From Tunturibacter psychrotolerans (lineage in GTDB: Bacteria; Acidobacteriota; Terriglobia; Terriglobales; Acidobacteriaceae): DNA of 64,000 nucleotides. The DNA is taken from NCBI RefSeq assembly GCF_040359615.1, contig NZ_CP132942.1, forward strand, positions 4,960,001-5,024,000. Direction: 5' to 3'. The translations under genes and the position numbers were made by a program. Shown here one piece after another: positions 42,782-51,245 of the stretch. The notes beneath the pieces were generated by a model. That model was not told the DNA's origin. It did no database searches and worked only from the letters and a program-made list of their open reading frames with translations. Positions within the stretch are counted from its first letter, which is position 1. Each line of letters starts with the position of its first letter.

Positions 42782-44737
42782 ATGTGTGGAATCGTTGGAT
42801 ACATCGGCCCTCAGTCTGTCGTCCCCGTCATCATTGAAGGCCTTCGCCGCCTCGAGTACCGCGGGTACGACTCCGCCGGCATCGCCGTAGCCGGAGGCCC
42901 CACCGGCCTCGCCCTCCGCCGCGCCCCCGGCAAGCTCCGCAACCTCGAAACCGTCATCCACGACTCCCCCATCGACGGCTCCTTCGGCATCGGCCATACC
43001 CGCTGGGCCACCCACGGCCGCCCCACCGAAGAGAACGCCCATCCGCACCGCGACGGCTCCGGCACCCTCGTCGTCGTCCACAACGGCATCGTCGAAAACT
43101 ATCTCTCCCTCAAGAGCGCCCTCATCGCCAAAGGCCACAAGTTCGTCTCTGAAACCGACACTGAGATCATCGCCCACCTCATCGAGGACGAGCTAAACCT
43201 CGCCGCCGGCAAAAACCCAAATCCCACCGTCGCCGCGCCCGACGCCAACACCTCCGAAGCCGTCCTCACCCTCCCCCTCAACGGCTCCGCCCCCACCATC
43301 CCCCTCGAAGAAGCCGTCCGCCGCGCCGTCAAGCGCATCACCGGAGCCTTCGCCATCGGTGTCCTCTCCGCGCACGAGCCCAACAAGCTCGTCGCCGCCC
43401 GCATGGGCCCGCCTGCCGTCATCGGTATCGGCGACGGCGAGTTCTTCCTCGCCTCCGACGTCCCCGGCATCCTCCACCACACCCGCAACATCCACTTCCT
43501 CGCCGACGGCGAACTAGCCGTCCTCACCAAAGAAGGCGTGCACCTAACCGATTTCGACGCACAGCCGATCCCACTAAAAATCCAGCGCATCACCTGGGAC
43601 CCCATCCAGGCCGAAAAGGCCGGCTACAAGCACTTCATGCTCAAAGAAATTAACGAGCAGCCCCGCGCCATCCGCGACACCACCCTCGGCCGCGTCTCCC
43701 TCGACACCGGAAAAGTCCACCTCACCGAGATGCACTTCTCCGACGCCGACTTCAAAAACGCCAGCCAGATCACCATCGCCGCCTGCGGAACCTCCTGGCA
43801 CGCTGGCCTCGCCGGCAAGTTCATGATCGAGCGCCTCGCCCGCCTCCCCGTCGAAGTCGATTACGCCAGCGAGTACCGCTACCGCGACCCCATCGCCGAC
43901 CCTCACGCCATCGGCCTCCTCATCACCCAGTCCGGCGAAACCGCCGACACCCTCGCCGCCCAGGCCGAGCTCGCCGCCAAAGGCAGCAAAACCCTCGCCA
44001 TCTGCAACGTCGTCGGCGCCGCCATCACCCGCAAAGCCCAGGGCACCCTCACCACCAACGCCGGCCCCGAGATCGGCGTCGCCTCCACCAAGGCCTTCAC
44101 CGCCCAGCTCACCGCCCTCTTCGTCCTCGCCCTCCATCTCGCCCAGGTACGCGGCACCATCTCCGACGCCGAATCCCTCCACCTCGTCAACGAGCTCAGC
44201 AAACTCCCCGGAAAAGTCGAAGACGTTCTACGCGCAGTCGACGACCAGTGCCACCAGCTCGCCAAATCCTTCCACACCGCCAACGACTTCCTCTTCCTCG
44301 GCCGCGGCATCCACTACCCCATCGCCCTCGAAGGCGCCCTCAAGCTCAAGGAGATCTCCTACATCCACGCCGAAGGCTACCCCGCCGGCGAGATGAAGCA
44401 CGGCCCCAACGCCCTCATCGACGAGACCCTCCCCGTCGTCTGCATCGCCACCAAGGACCCCACCGATCCCTCGAGCGTCCTCAAGTACGAAAAAACCCTC
44501 AGCAACATACAAGAGGTCACCGCCCGCAGCGGCCGCGTTATCGCCATCGCCATCGAAGGCGACGAAGAGATCAAGCACCTGGTAGAGCACACCATCCAAA
44601 TCCCCCAGGCCCCCGAACTCCTCCTACCCGTCTTAGAAGTAGTTCCCCTCCAACTCCTCGCCTACCACATAGCCGTCCGCCGAGGCTGCGACGTAGACCA
44701 ACCCAGAAACTTAGCCAAGAGCGTCACCGTGGAGTAA
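42782..44737 (+). CDS. glmS: Glutamine-fructose-6-phosphate aminotransferase (isomerizing)
   Basis: 651 aa. Cys2 of MCGIVGYIG is the glutaminase nucleophile after Met removal; [18 protein letters not shown] and the two SIS domains ([55 protein letters not shown]) are present, ending [13 protein letters not shown]. It makes glucosamine-6-P from fructose-6-P and glutamine, the first step to UDP-GlcNAc for wall and exopolysaccharide. Compared with the usual ~610 aa there are about 40 extra residues at 138-178 (Pro/Ala-rich, [20 protein letters not shown]) in the glutaminase domain. Confidence 0.96.
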
Positions 44738-45671: not shown

Positions 45672-46100
45672 ATGAAAGCAGCAAGCACAGTAGCACTTGC
45701 CCTCGTTCTCGCCGTGTCCCCGATTCATGCGAAGGATAAATTTGCTCCGCTCCCAGCCAGCGTGTTAGCTGCAAAAACTGTATACATCGACAATCAAACG
45801 GGCCACGCACAGATTACAGACCGAGCCTACGATGAACTAACGAAGTGGGGGCGATTCCAAATCGTGAAGGACGCAAAGGGCGCCGATTTGGTCCTTCGGT
45901 TCACAGCAAACACCAAAGGCAGACCCACCCCACCAGGCAATGATATAGACATATCACCTACCCCGGTCGTTTTCTCTGTTCGCGACCAAAATGATAATGA
46001 ACTCTTATCTATATCTAAGGATCAGCCGCTTCATAGTCAAACGCGCCTGGATATTGATGAACTAAAAAAGCGAATTGAACAACAAGAAAAAGGCAACTAG
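45672..46100 (+). CDS. Small secreted protein, unknown function
   Basis: 142 aa from ATG 45672, with an ideal AAGGAG 7 bp upstream and a signal peptide MKAASTVALALVLAVSPIHA. The mature part has ASVLAAKTVYIDNQTGHAQITDRAYDELTKWGRFQIVKDAKGADLVLRF, the strand/helix order of small periplasmic proteins of the DUF4136/LpoB-like kind, but I cannot name the family. The base composition is AT-richer than its neighbours and it lies between the two ends of a broken RAYT copy, both signs that it was carried in or that the RAYT moved around it. Confidence 0.75.
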   Translation: MKAASTVALALVLAVSPIHAKDKFAPLPASVLAAKTVYIDNQTGHAQITDRAYDELTKWGRFQIVKDAKGADLVLRFTANTKGRPTPPGNDIDISPTPVVFSVRDQNDNELLSISKDQPLHSQTRLDIDELKKRIEQQEKGN

Positions 46101-46724: not shown

Positions 46725-46750
46725 GATGCACTCATTGAGTGATAAGGCGA
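46725..46750 (+). repeat. 26-bp direct repeat, left copy, bordering the Cys-rich/MauE module
   Basis: Exactly repeated at 50685-50710. It contains the inverted repeat CACTCA-T-TGAGTG followed by ATAAGGCGA. The two copies bracket 3.9 kb with two divergent genes. Confidence 0.9.
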
Positions 46751-46963
46751 GCATCACTTAACTAGTTTCGCCTGGTGAACTTACACACAACCTGCTTTCG
46801 GCAAATTGCCATGCGAGCCGGCCTAGAGATGATCACGTCAGCATGCAGGCCATTGGTGGTAGCTCGCCAATGAACATTTGGGTATCCGCTTACTTGTACT
46901 TCCGCTCAAGCGGTATGCCGACGCTTCGTTGGAGATCCTCCACCCATTCGCGTGGTTCCTGAA

Positions 46964-48691
46964 TCAGTGCACGCATTGGTACGGCGCGAAGCACCCCGTC
47001 TCTTCTCCGATCGTGCAGCAGGTGGTCCCTGGCGGGCAGCACTTGCCGAGGCAGCAGGTCTGCGTTACCGGGCAGCATATCGTTTCGAAGGCTCCCCTGA
47101 CGTAGGTCCGGCATGGCGCGAGTTCCCCAGAGCATGGCACACAAACGCCCTTCGCCGGATCGGTGCATTGCTGCCCCTCGGGACAGCAACGCTGTCCGCA
47201 GATCCTATCCTGAGGGCAGCACCCGGCGCCGGTGCAGAGGTCACCCGCCCCGCAGCATTGAGTTCTGATTCCGCTTCCGAACCCAGTCGCGAACGTCTCC
47301 CAAGTCTGGCAGCAAAGATTGAAGGGTGGACAGCATACGTGCCCGCACATGTGCGCGGGCCACTCGCAGCATTGGCCGTTGCGGCAGACCCCGGTGCAGC
47401 AGACAGCGTTGTCTCCCTCGCCGCAGAGCTGATTAGGAGAGCAGCACTGTCCGTGCATGCACACCTCGTTAGGCCCACAACAGAACTCGCCGCAAGCCGG
47501 CCCGTGATCGCGTGGGCAGCACAGCCCCGACGACGGATCGACGCACACTTCTCCAGGGGGACAGCACTGTGGAGTTCCCCACTCGTCGGGACAATAGTCT
47601 CCGGCGCCAGCGGGACAACACACTCCCTGTGAGTGGCTCGCGCACTTGGTTCCGGAGGGGCAACAAAAATCGCCGCATGCCGGCCCGCTTCCCACCGCAC
47701 AACAGAGATCGCTCCCAGGGTCGGCGCATACCTGTCCCTCCGGACAGCAACGACCGCCGCAACAGAGCCTGCCGCCATCGCAGCACTCCGCCGTCCCGCC
47801 TCTCTGGCATCGCACCGGGCAGCACTTTCCCGGCGGATTGTCACAGACAGCGAGACAATCCGCGTCGTCGGAGAGGCACATCGCTCCGAGCACTCCGAAG
47901 CAGACCCCATAGAAAAATCCGCATGCGCTCGCTTCACTAGCCGCCTCCGCAATACAGGTGGTCTGCTTCTTACCGCATTCGTCCTCGCAATCGCTGCAAC
48001 CTGGAAACGACGCCGGCACATAGTCGAGCATCTGGTCGAGCACCTGCTGTTCGGGAAAAAGAAAGCAGTCCAGCATCTCCCGCGAGGCCCGCTGGGAGAT
48101 CTCCCGAATCTCCTCCCGTGTACGCCCGTCCAGCAATATCTGCGGGAGTCTTATCTCTGCGGCAAGACCCAGAGCATCCAGCACTGCCGCCGAATCCTCC
48201 AGGTGCTTTCCGTGAAGCAACCGTTTCGCCCTGGGGTCCAACGCGAAGGAGTGGCCATCCTCGAGCGTTGTCTCAGCTTTTTCACCACGGACTGTAACCT
48301 GCATGTGGGGAGCGCCCTGCACCTCGTGGCCGAACTCCACCCAGAGCTTCGACGCCTCACCAGGCATCGACGCCGTCTTCACCTGGAGGAGCCTTTCTCC
48401 ATCCCTGCGAATCGTAGTCGATGCAGAGGTCGCACCGGTCTTCAGATCTCTGGAAGAGAGGACGTCATAGGTGAGATAGTGGCCCGACGAGGTCGCGGCT
48501 TGCGCGGAAAAGGTCTGGCTCAGCAGATCTTTCTCGCGCCACATGGTGCACGGGCCACGCTGCGCCACGCGTGCTTTTTCTCTTGAGGGCCGCGCGGGTC
48601 GCGCACGCACCACCTTCGCAACCGAAGGTGTTCCTCTGAAGTATTCCAAGCGTCCTATGCTCTTCGAAAGTCCGTCGAACCAGTGTGCCAT
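46964..48691 (-). CDS. Very cysteine-rich repeat protein (granulin/Stig1-like CC repeats), unknown function
   Basis: 575 aa, ATG 48691 with CGGAG 7 bp upstream. Residues 1-50 are basic and contain no ordinary signal peptide. About 50-230 is a cysteine-poor domain (DLLSQTFSAQ, YLTYDVLSSRDL, LWVEFGHEVQGAPHMQVTV). From PGCSDCEDECGKKQTTC to the C-terminus there are, by hand count, about 70 of the 74 cysteines with 22 CC doublets, arranged as CCPxGxxC / CGxxCC units (GGRCCPEGQVC, FCCPSGTKC, QCCPPGEVC, KCCPPGTTCC). The pattern resembles granulin or Stig1-type knots; it is not a [4Fe-4S] ferredoxin spacing. A hydrophobic patch GFFYGVCFGVLGAMC sits at the junction. The divergent neighbour is a MauE-thioredoxin fusion, so I infer that it is an exported, heavily disulfide-bonded protein. 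Confidence 0.8.
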   Translation of the reverse strand: MAHWFDGLSKSIGRLEYFRGTPSVAKVVRARPARPSREKARVAQRGPCTMWREKDLLSQTFSAQAATSSGHYLTYDVLSSRDLKTGATSASTTIRRDGERLLQVKTASMPGEASKLWVEFGHEVQGAPHMQVTVRGEKAETTLEDGHSFALDPRAKRLLHGKHLEDSAAVLDALGLAAEIRLPQILLDGRTREEIREISQRASREMLDCFLFPEQQVLDQMLDYVPASFPGCSDCEDECGKKQTTCIAEAASEASACGFFYGVCFGVLGAMCLSDDADCLAVCDNPPGKCCPVRCQRGGTAECCDGGRLCCGGRCCPEGQVCADPGSDLCCAVGSGPACGDFCCPSGTKCASHSQGVCCPAGAGDYCPDEWGTPQCCPPGEVCVDPSSGLCCPRDHGPACGEFCCGPNEVCMHGQCCSPNQLCGEGDNAVCCTGVCRNGQCCEWPAHMCGHVCCPPFNLCCQTWETFATGFGSGIRTQCCGAGDLCTGAGCCPQDRICGQRCCPEGQQCTDPAKGVCVPCSGELAPCRTYVRGAFETICCPVTQTCCLGKCCPPGTTCCTIGEETGCFAPYQCVH

Positions 48692-48904
48692 TGGAACACT
48701 CCGATCGTGGAACGTTGAATGGTCGTAAGCGTTCGGTTGCCGTGTATACTACGCCAGCCATCGAATCGGACGCAACAAACTGCCTGCGCCAACGCGAAGC
48801 ATTTCTTGCCTGCACGCTCACGACCGTGGCGGAACTGTCCCTATCGTTGGCCCCGGCCGAGGTTACATTCACCGCCTCTTGATGGATGGCGAGGAGAGTA
48901 GCGA
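48692..48904. promoter_or_regulatory. Divergent promoter region of the Cys-rich / MauE-thioredoxin pair
   Basis: 213 bp between the two start codons. TATACT at 48745-48750 is a possible -10 for the rightward gene, though no good -35 is seen at 17 bp. Confidence 0.35.
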
Positions 48905-50470
48905 ATGGGCGCCTTGCTCTTGATTTGCAGACTGTTTCTCGCTCTCGTCTTCCTGATTGCGGGAGTTGCAAAGTTTGTCAGCAGACAATCCACCCGGGAG
49001 ATGCTCGAAGACTTCGGCTTGCCCGACTCTCTCGTCCCTGTGTCGATCATCCTGCTGCCTCTGTCCGAGTTGTGCGTCGCCGTCGCCCTGTTCATCACTC
49101 CTTCGGCACGGTCCGGGGGCGTGGCCGCTCTGACCCTTCTAGGCGCCTTCTGTGTCGGCATAGGGGTCAATCTCCATTTCGGCCGCCGTCCTAGTTGCCA
49201 GTGCTTTGGCCAGCTGGGCTCCTCTCCCGTCAGCCGCTACACTATCTTCCGAAACCTTCTGCTCATGGCGTTGGCCGGCGTCGTCCTGTGGCGGCCCTCC
49301 GCTTATACTGCGCTCGCCTTACCGATTCAGCAGGCCGCCCTGCTGCTCGCGGTTTTCGGAATCTGCCTCGGCCTTTTCATTGTCTTCCTTCTTTTCCAAC
49401 TCACTGCGCAGAATGGCCGTATCTTGCTCGCGTTCGAAGAACTCTCCTCACGCCAGCCTGGCACCGCTCTCAGCGGCGCAGCAACTTCCCGAGCCATCAA
49501 CACGGGAGTAGGCCTACCCATCGGGTCGCGCGCCCCGAACTTTCAGCTTGCTGAACTCTCCGGCCGCCTTCGGACGCTTGCCGATCTTCTTCACGGTGGT
49601 TCCCCACTGCTGCTTACTTTTGTCGATCCCGGCTGCGGGCCCTGCCATGCGCTGTTGCCCTCGCTCGTGCGATGGCAGCACGAAGATCCCCGGCTGAGGT
49701 TCATCCTCATCTCCAGAGGCACCGCAGAGGAGAACCTCGAGAAGGTAGCCAACGCCCGCAACATCCCCGTCCTTCTTCAGGTTGACCGCGAAGTTCAGCA
49801 GGTCTACGAGGCCCTTGGCACTCCGAGCATGCTCCACGTTGCACCCGACGGCTCCATTGGCAGCGGAGTCGCCCAAGGTAGCGAACAGATCGGCGCCCTC
49901 GTCTCAGCACTGCGTTCTATGCCAAGCCCTGGCACTGCATCCGTGGCGCTTACACCACAAAGACTCACCACTCAAAGTTCACCCACTAACAGCGTGCCGC
50001 AGCCGGATTCTGGCCGAGTCCGCGCCTCTAATCACATCCCCGCCTCCAACCGCCCAAAGGTGATCCTGCAGCCCGGCGTTCCGCTCCCAGGTGAGCTTGC
50101 GCTCAAGCTAAATGAAGCTGGGGCCGACCTCGTCTCCTACCGGGGCAAATCTCTCTTGCTGCTCTTCTGGAGTTCTGCCTGCGGCTTCTGCCAAACCATG
50201 CTCCCCGACTTGAGACAGTGGGAGGCGACCCGCTCCCCCGGCGATCCCGAGTTGATTGTCATAGAGAGCGCCGCAGCGCCGCCCAGCAATGGAAATGAGC
50301 TCCACTTTCCCAGCATCTACGATGCCTCCTTTGAGCTGGGGCGCGCCTTTTCCATCGGCGGGACCCCCTCCGCGGTGCTGCTCTCATCTGACGGTACCGT
50401 AGCTGGCGAAATCGCCGTCGGCAGGAGCGCCATAATGAACCTGGTTTCGCGGCTCCAAGTCGCTGAATAG
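48905..50470 (+). CDS. MauE-type membrane protein fused to two thioredoxin-fold domains
   Basis: 521 aa, ATG 48905 with GAGGAG 8 bp upstream. Residues 1-165 have four to five membrane segments in the MauE/DoxX pattern (ICRLFLALVFLIAGVAKF; SIILLPLSELCVAVALFI) and the MauE signature CQCFG (Cys98, Cys100) before RNLLLMALAGVVLW. About 203-340 is a TlpA/Trx domain with Cys244-Gly-Pro-Cys247 and a cis-Pro at GTPSM (307). After a 45-residue Ser/Thr/Pro linker, 384-521 is a second Trx domain with Cys426-Gly-Phe-Cys429 and cis-Pro in GGTPSA (488). MauE is needed with MauD for the six disulfides of methylamine dehydrogenase small subunit. Here one chain could relay electrons from two periplasmic Trx domains to the membrane, serving the divergent Cys-rich protein. 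No mau genes are nearby. Confidence 0.85.
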   Translation: MGALLLICRLFLALVFLIAGVAKFVSRQSTREMLEDFGLPDSLVPVSIILLPLSELCVAVALFITPSARSGGVAALTLLGAFCVGIGVNLHFGRRPSCQCFGQLGSSPVSRYTIFRNLLLMALAGVVLWRPSAYTALALPIQQAALLLAVFGICLGLFIVFLLFQLTAQNGRILLAFEELSSRQPGTALSGAATSRAINTGVGLPIGSRAPNFQLAELSGRLRTLADLLHGGSPLLLTFVDPGCGPCHALLPSLVRWQHEDPRLRFILISRGTAEENLEKVANARNIPVLLQVDREVQQVYEALGTPSMLHVAPDGSIGSGVAQGSEQIGALVSALRSMPSPGTASVALTPQRLTTQSSPTNSVPQPDSGRVRASNHIPASNRPKVILQPGVPLPGELALKLNEAGADLVSYRGKSLLLLFWSSACGFCQTMLPDLRQWEATRSPGDPELIVIESAAAPPSNGNELHFPSIYDASFELGRAFSIGGTPSAVLLSSDGTVAGEIAVGRSAIMNLVSRLQVAE

Positions 50471-50684
50471 ACCTTACTGCGCTTCGGCGGGTTACCGTGG
50501 CCTTCTGCAGTGCTGCATGAGGCACTCGACGTGCATTCTTGACTGGTCTGTCGCGCGTTGAGACGGTCCCTTGACACCATTGGGCCCGGCTCCGCGCGGG
50601 ATGAAATGCGCGCCCCCCTCAGGGGCGGATCCGCGTAGCCCAAGTCGGTTGCTCCCGGTGAATCTCGGCGATTGGTAACAGTCT

Positions 50685-50710
50685 GATGCACTCATTGAGT
50701 GATAAGGCGA
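50685..50710 (+). repeat. 26-bp direct repeat, right copy
   Basis: Exact match to 46725-46750 in the same orientation. A related CCACTCATCGAGG follows 5 bp later. The 50471-50750 gap otherwise has a GC hairpin CGCCCC-CCTCA-GGGGCG near 50612 without a T run. Confidence 0.9.
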
Positions 50711-50750: not shown

Positions 50751-51245
50751 TCAATCAACCCTGTAAGCGACCCCGTTGATCGCGCCGCCGTCGACCACCA
50801 GGATGAATTTCCGGCCCTGGTTCACCACGATGAAGTGGTAGCCAAGCGGAGGAAAGCCGGGCGCAACGTCGATCGAGGCCGATCCGGTGCAATCCGGATT
50901 GACGTTGTAGGTGCCGGTGCTCGGTCTCCACTCCTCGATGGGAGGCTGGCCGTTGAGAACGACGTGGTCGATCTCTGTGAGGGTGCCGTCTCCCCGAAAG
51001 TGAGCGAGAACTAGGGTCCGCAAGATGGCATCATTCACATCCGTCCTGTTGCCCTCAATCTGAATTCCATAGTCGCCAGTCAGTGTGCGGTTTGAACACT
51101 TTTTGTGCTGCCCTTCGTTGCGATCATCGAGGGCGCTTGAATGGTTTAACTGGCCAAGAGCAAAAGTGGCCGATGCCATGATGATGCCAACTGCAAATTT
51201 CCGTGTGATAGTGCTCAGTGGGGCTAAAGTCGAATTGTTTTTCAT
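50751..51245 (-). CDS. Small secreted protein, unknown function
   Basis: 164 aa from ATG 51245, where AAGGAGGG stands 5 bp upstream; the frame is open further but that start lies inside the divergent regulator gene. Signal peptide about residues 14-35 (TRKFAVGIIMASATFALGQ). The mature protein begins with CSNRTLTGDYGIQIEG and contains LVLAHFRGDGTLTEIDHVVLNGQ and GTYNVNPDCTGSASIDV, a beta-rich pattern seen in many acidobacterial secreted proteins of about 150 aa. Two cysteines could pair. Divergent from the winged-helix/PD40 gene with 139 bp between, so it may be that regulator's target. Confidence 0.75.
   Translation of the reverse strand: MKNNSTLAPLSTITRKFAVGIIMASATFALGQLNHSSALDDRNEGQHKKCSNRTLTGDYGIQIEGNRTDVNDAILRTLVLAHFRGDGTLTEIDHVVLNGQPPIEEWRPSTGTYNVNPDCTGSASIDVAPGFPPLGYHFIVVNQGRKFILVVDGGAINGVAYRVD

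Follow-up and report, generated by a model that had tools for sequence, protein, structure and literature searches.

In a 64,000-nucleotide stretch of the Tunturibacter psychrotolerans genome (contig NZ_CP132942.1, positions 4,960,001 to 5,024,000; hereafter the window), a gene for a cysteine-rich protein lies divergently beside a gene for a membrane redox protein in which a MauE domain is fused to two thioredoxin (Trx) domains. We found that this pair is real and recurrent and is a novel form of the MauE/MauD maturation theme, and we consider it probable that its members are a dedicated thiol-disulfide enzyme and its client, as the cysteine-rich protein is called below. The interesting parts are the wider distribution of the pair and its predicted cytoplasmic face. 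The client gene (window positions 46964-48691, minus strand) is an open reading frame (ORF) of 575 amino acids with 74 Cys and 22 CC pairs, for which no family was matched in Pfam or NCBIfam. The fusion gene (48905-50470, plus strand) encodes 521 amino acids comprising MauE, a MauD-like Trx domain and a second, ResA-like Trx domain, and a 213-bp intergenic region (48692-48904) separates the two genes. The ORFs and the Pfam MauE and redoxin models, the latter with two stretches, bear out the preliminary description of this DNA, which had reported a protein of about 74 cysteines divergent from a membrane protein with MauE and two Trx domains.

Pfam matches to the fusion were MauE (2.4e-27), AhpC-TSA (6.3e-15) and Redoxin (9.7e-11), the last two with two stretches each; neither VKOR nor DsbB was among them. 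The MauE domain (PF07291; residues 2-130, 48908-49294, plus strand, as for all features of this gene) scored 96.2 bits against a curated cut-off of 27. Its third loop carries a CxC (residues 98-100, 49196-49204), both Cys of which are invariant among 15 aligned homologues. A fifth transmembrane helix (TM5; residues 145-168, 49337-49408), placed by the structure model and by charge and hydropathy counts, is followed by QNGR. Motif and alignment then locate the active sites of the two Trx domains, CGPC in the first (residues 244-247, 49634-49645) and CGFC in the second (residues 426-429, 50180-50191). NCBIfam matches to the first Trx region included ResA and MauD, both under their own cut-offs, and the MauD equivalog TIGR02661 was not reached (45.2 bits vs 188.6); by these scores the MauD-like part is a relative of MauD and not the equivalog. 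ResA entries matched both Trx regions by sequence, and a Foldseek search with the structure model, which is moderate (71.8, pTM 0.34), recognised the Trx fold with ResA among the best matches (1su9, E 3e-9). The MauD of plasmid record LT969519 aligns with TM5 and the first Trx domain, and we therefore read the fusion, from sequence and model, as MauE plus a MauD-like domain plus one further ResA-like domain.

In the client, 63 of the 74 Cys fall in residues 290-575. The structure model (mean pLDDT 77.9, pTM 0.51; residues 1-39 unconfident) predicts a beta domain (residues 41-151, 48239-48571, minus strand throughout) and helices whose conserved Cys appear in the alignment (residues 189-284, 47840-48127), followed by a CC-repeat region of short beta strands or hairpins (residues 290-570, 46982-47824). 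Structure searches with this model gave no significant solved relative. A profile of the N-domain (residues 48-209) also matched loci L058, L075 and L088 and a decayed copy at L057; a sub-profile of the helical region gave no matches. Three known identities do not fit the client. A methylamine dehydrogenase light chain, and with it a mau cluster proper, was rejected for the client, which has no match to PF02975; AauA, an aralkylamine dehydrogenase light chain taken as a positive example, matched this family at 2e-52. It does not resemble a metallothionein-like metal binder: metallothioneins carry CxC or CxxC clusters, and the client has no CxC and two CxxC beside its 22 CC. Finally, ribosomally synthesized and post-translationally modified peptides (RiPPs) of the MauE/MauD type are defined by a short precursor peptide, which a 575-residue protein with predicted folded domains is not.

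Relatives of the client numbered at least 11 in the first search and at least 25 with a profile of 14 sequences, and relatives of the fusion at least 558. The client profile matched four of 297 genomes of the phylum, and all four have MauE/Trx sequence nearby on the same contig. The preliminary description had proposed looking for homologues of both proteins as neighbours, and had held that client homologues never found near MauE/Trx genes would speak against it; they are found near such genes, both in these four genomes and, as a strong association, across the wider set of loci described below. In G258 a 76-Cys protein lies 93 bp from a full fusion, and in G180 the distance between an 18-Cys protein and a MauE-Trx ORF truncated by the end of the contig is 1.5 kb; both proteins match the client profile over the CC-repeat part only. 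In G155, of the window's genus, a piece of the client N-domain runs into sequence of the first Trx domain and the second follows as a separate ORF, a locus that, as it stands, reads as a decayed remnant of the pair with both parts represented. Profile A3, the closer one, matched two of 62 genomes from the genus, the window's own and G331, the latter apparently the same sequence as Edaphobacter record L075 (same ORF length and match scores). The client relatives P0001 and P0002 are placed with the fusion relatives P0013 and P0015, respectively, by the equal lengths of their longest contigs (13458 and 6847); among P0001-P0005 and P0143 these are the two for which pairing could be seen. The window's client is 94% identical to P0001 and its fusion 86% to P0013.

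The association was then assessed at 66 named loci with MauE/Trx relatives, including MauE-only and Trx-only pieces. Acidobacteriota, Chloroflexota and Actinomycetota supply most of them, and one or a few records each carry the labels Nitrospira, Eremiobacterota, Gemmatimonadales and proteobacteria. To be scored, an ORF needed an [FLIVWYM]D...RR leader followed by a hydrophobic stretch and, after the leader, at least 8 Cys and a Cys content of 4%; ORFs that overlapped the redox ORF by more than 200 bases were skipped. Such a leader-bearing Cys-rich ORF lay within 1.6 kb at 20 of the 66 loci, on the same strand in 17 and on the opposite strand in 3. The distance profile gave 19 matches in 170.9 kb at 0-1.5 kb vs 2 in 503.2 kb further out, a per-kb signal about 28-fold lower beyond 1.5 kb (binomial 5.7e-10, ignoring relatedness). 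One of the two far matches is the twentieth locus, L102, at 1536 bp, which appears to duplicate the G180 locus (same ORF). This profile, together with the one-chain proteins described below, rejects a chance neighbourhood. The clients are diverse: Stig1 was matched at L086 and L111 and Disintegrin stretches at L119, an MXAN_6577-like match was above the cut-off at L086 and below it at L073, and others were unmatched. We take this diversity as a sign that a single kind of enzyme and leader serves several Cys-rich folds.

Three further arrangements were observed. A Rubrobacteraceae protein from a metagenome-assembled genome (MAG; L119:5870-7822) has seven Disintegrin stretches and lies beside a MauE ORF that is truncated where the contig ends. 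Directly downstream of the fusion gene at L039 (9400-10062) a PqqD domain precedes an SRR leader and a tail rich in Cys. A Geodermatophilus ORF (L117:7276-7971), phospholipase-A2-like with 20 Cys and a PLA2G12 match below the cut-off, overlaps the start of the MauE ORF; it is without an RR leader and was left out of the neighbour count.

Redox part and Cys-rich part are in some cases joined in one polypeptide. In Streptomyces and Mycobacterium records (L104, L105, L109, L114 and L141), a single chain holds MauE, Trx, an RR motif and, C-terminally, a part with 14-15 Cys; the Trx domain comes before the RR motif and the Cys-rich part after it. The stretch after RR passes the hydropathy threshold of 1.5 in L105 and was read by eye in the other four. 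In an Eremiobacterota MAG (L111:7917-9293) one chain holds Trx, then a hydrophobic stretch, then six Stig1 matches; the sequence before the hydrophobic stretch (1.82, which passes the same threshold) is R-rich and has no RR. L104, L105, L109, L111 and L114 belong to the 66 loci, and the plasmid locus L141 is a sixth case. The Caballeronia client L140 gave no BLASTP match to the one-chain proteins at 1e-3.

Leaders of the twin-arginine translocation (Tat) type are frequent among client relatives, as judged by hydropathy and pattern and not by a signal predictor. An RR leader with a hydrophobic stretch is present in P0006, P0007, L058, L075 and L088. In the 26 client relatives listed, seven have an RR leader by pattern and two more by eye (P0139, P0140), five have another N-terminal hydrophobic stretch, three look truncated, and nine (P0001-P0005, P0008, P0009, P0011 and P0147) are without a signal, like the window client. 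The latter has no RR leader and a best 17-residue hydropathy of 0.23, and thus shows neither mark of a Tat substrate. Alignment A4 and hydropathy show that its residues 4-15 (WFDGLSK...; 48647-48682, minus strand) correspond to the start of its relatives' FD...SRR leader, with the SRR and the hydrophobic stretch missing. Its close clade shares an FD motif close to the N-terminus and, further on, a GPC (GQC in P0001), without the SRR-hydrophobic part of L058, and from this comparison we infer that the export signal was lost in the window's clade. That the window client is so close in sequence to P0001 suggests that the form without a signal is being maintained. P0008, P0009 and P0147 start with a different shared motif (GFxAEAxLY...YR) and have no hydrophobic signal.

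To place the enzyme relative to the membrane, we counted charges in the best 120 of the at least 558 fusion homologues. Loops 1 and 3, the latter with the CxC, averaged 3.42 and 3.13 K/R residues per sequence, loops 2 and 4 averaged 0.13 and 0.63, and the stretch after TM5 averaged 2.75. The 15 residues before TM5 had zero K/R in 85 of 120 sequences, and the 15 after it at least one in 118 of 120; as a control, K/R residues precede the hydrophobic stretch in seven of seven standalone ResA-like proteins from the phylum. The positive-inside rule therefore predicts that the CxC, like both Trx domains, faces the cytoplasm. The order of the one-chain proteins agrees with this face, and charges and one-chain proteins together suggest that the Trx domains act before Tat-type export. 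The same two lines of sequence evidence make an extracytoplasmic site of action doubtful.

We propose the following mechanism. Client cysteines would exchange with the CGPC and CGFC Trx domains, which would hand electrons to the CxC of the MauE membrane part; by analogy with DsbA/DsbB or VKOR-Trx, the CxC would probably pass them on to quinone. As a result, the CC-repeat region may be made, or proof-read, as a ladder of disulfides. Because many client relatives carry an FD...RR Tat-type leader, this folding would take place on the cytoplasmic face before export, and the window's clade would have lost the export signal. The preliminary description had cast the fusion as a disulfide system for the Cys-rich protein; the recurrent pairing (four of four genomes, 20 of 66 loci) favours that idea. 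It did not mention that the client lacks an export signal.

A number of observations weigh against this explanation. The strict neighbour test failed at 46 of the 66 loci. Eight of these were read by eye, without a control, as having a neighbour: with a leader and many Cys at L090, L092, L095 and L100, Cys-rich without a visible leader (frame or contig end) at L059 and L076, and with a leader and just 10 Cys in about 300 amino acids at L098 and L103. After these eight and the five one-chain loci, 33 of the 66 have no partner seen, several of them on short contigs. In the acidobacterial family f21, no leader-bearing Cys-rich ORF was found in any of the 14 fetched loci (L040, L042-L053, L055), nor was one found at L038, and the enzyme is thus not always a dedicated partner; a looser Cys filter without the leader test listed short Cys-containing ORFs in several f21 loci, which we took for out-of-frame ORFs. 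The pairing of MauE/Trx with Cys-rich proteins is recurrent and not accidental, and dedication is not universal. The CGPC active site is typical of reducing thioredoxins, and reduction or isomerisation of the client is possible. After TM5, acidic residues outnumber basic ones (4.94 vs 2.75 per sequence), and in the ResA controls, too, 0-3 K/R follow the hydrophobic stretch, which leaves the charge argument not one-sided. The absence of an export signal from the window client, judged by hydropathy, also fits poorly with a periplasmic enzyme.

Of the alternatives, one keeps the same enzyme-client pair but has the Trx domains facing the periplasm, on the pattern of classical Dsb systems, with the window client exported by an unrecognised route. 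The closest solved folds are ResA/TlpA-type domains, which are usually extracytoplasmic, 14 of the 26 listed client relatives carry an RR leader or other N-terminal hydrophobic stretch, and the acidic excess after TM5 is in keeping with this placement. However, the K/R pattern over the 120 homologues and the position of Trx N-terminal to the RR motif and Cys-rich part in one-chain proteins argue for the cytoplasm, and we regard the periplasmic placement as rather unlikely.

The pair is bracketed by two identical 26-bp direct repeats (46725-46750 and 50685-50710, both plus strand), which the preliminary description had reported and which we confirmed: they are exact, and the sequence occurs at no other site in the 5.64-Mb genome at up to three mismatches; its 21-base core likewise has just these two sites. 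The repeats may be the ends of a movable cassette, an idea raised in the preliminary description, with the recombinase supplied in trans; their exactness, their uniqueness and their enclosure of just the client and fusion genes would suggest this. Also in favour, the client (profile A3) is matched in two of 62 genus genomes, its own included, with the G155 remnant (profile A1) in addition. Against this, no recombinase match was found in the 12 scanned of the 16 ORFs of at least 90 amino acids between the repeats, the other four being short ORFs that overlap the two genes. The right flank is equally patchy in the genus, where it is not conserved and gave partial matches only, in 11 of 61 other genomes, and no empty site was found. 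A copy of the repeat, even with three mismatches, occurs in just one of those 61 genomes. We judge a mobile cassette to be doubtful. GC content is 61.2% between the repeats, 57.2% in the whole window and 64.8% in the glmS-like gene, and base composition is uninformative. An IS200-like Y1 transposase (PF01797; 44965-45465) lies 1.3 kb outside the repeats, shortly downstream of the gene we take to be glmS-like (42782-44737), and two small proteins without a Pfam match (45672-46100 and 50751-51245) flank the segment between the repeats.

Another explanation makes the client a metallothionein-like protein of the cytosol that binds metal or buffers thiols and that the fusion keeps reduced. The lack of an export signal in the window's clade, the CGPC active site and the 74 thiols would suit such a role, but the CC-dominated motif counts are unlike those of metallothioneins, and export leaders are present in relatives that align over the same Cys. 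At other loci the clients show matches to Stig1 or Disintegrin, which are disulfide-rich extracellular folds, and we find a reduced thiol store improbable. Least probable of all is that the fusion is a general disulfide enzyme with no dedicated client in a genome region rich in such genes: the f21 fusions, all 14 without a leader-bearing Cys-rich ORF, have a housekeeping-like context where it was read (6 of 14; in five of these six the fusion sits between a GTPase and genes that we presume to be tgt/yajC/secD-like), but the sharp distance dependence, the one-chain fusions and the decayed G155 copy holding both parts all stand against it.

The pair can also be compared with known systems. In LT969519 the gene order is aauB-mauE-mauD-aauA, and AauA starts with MSKFFDRL, with TGRRSFLAKAG further on; in this one example the FD...GRR leader resembles the clients' FD...RR leaders, with longer spacing. 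The mau/aau clusters, in which MauE/MauD mature the light chain of methylamine or aralkylamine dehydrogenase, share with the pair a MauE followed by a MauD-type transmembrane and Trx part and an adjacent disulfide-rich client with an FD...RR leader. In contrast, MauE in our pair is fused with the MauD-like part and an extra ResA-like domain is present, the client is a 575-residue CC-repeat protein, and no heavy-chain gene was seen beside it. No mau structural genes were seen here, as had been stated earlier; a PF02975 search of the organism's own genome gave no match, but its control also matched nowhere, so that search alone proves nothing. VKOR-Trx and DsbA/DsbB likewise couple a membrane redox part to a Trx-type domain, whereas the fusion has a MauE/DoxX membrane part, two Trx domains and a predicted cytoplasmic face. 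Stig1, Disintegrin and MXAN_6577-like families appear as neighbours or fused parts at the loci named above, but the window client matches none of them.

The preliminary description had also been aware of no described system of this make-up, a statement that is too strong. The decRiPPter study (PMC7794033), which cites van der Palen 1997 on MauE/MauD, reports three candidate families that contain mauE, in one case together with mauD, and for each of them a predicted precursor with 8 or more Cys. These Streptomyces clusters share with our loci a MauE (once a MauD) near a gene for a product with at least 8 Cys and are a partial precedent for the pairing. They differ in that RiPP precursors were proposed there, whereas here we find large proteins, many with Tat-type leaders, in several phyla and with one-chain fusions. 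No description of the enzyme/Cys-rich pairing beyond decRiPPter was found among the papers listed in one open-licence library.

A broader proposal, which we offer as a tentative possibility, is that MauE-MauD-type enzymes are a widespread cytoplasm-facing oxidative folding system for Cys-rich proteins before Tat-type export, sometimes in one chain with the signal and the client, and that the window's clade, having given up export, retains its 74-Cys protein, with disulfides, within the cell. If the proposal is true, cytoplasm-facing folding may hold also for the methylamine dehydrogenase light chain. Proteins leave by Tat in folded form and the bacterial cytoplasm is in general reducing, which raises the question of how disulfide-rich Tat cargo, methylamine dehydrogenase included, acquires its disulfides. 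Where such cargo has a membrane enzyme as its partner, in some cases within the same chain, that question can be put directly to the test, and the enzyme could become a tool to produce disulfide-rich proteins. The pairing also suggests a disulfide-handling role for unannotated Cys-rich neighbours of these enzymes, whether Stig1-like, disintegrin-like or of the CC-repeat type.

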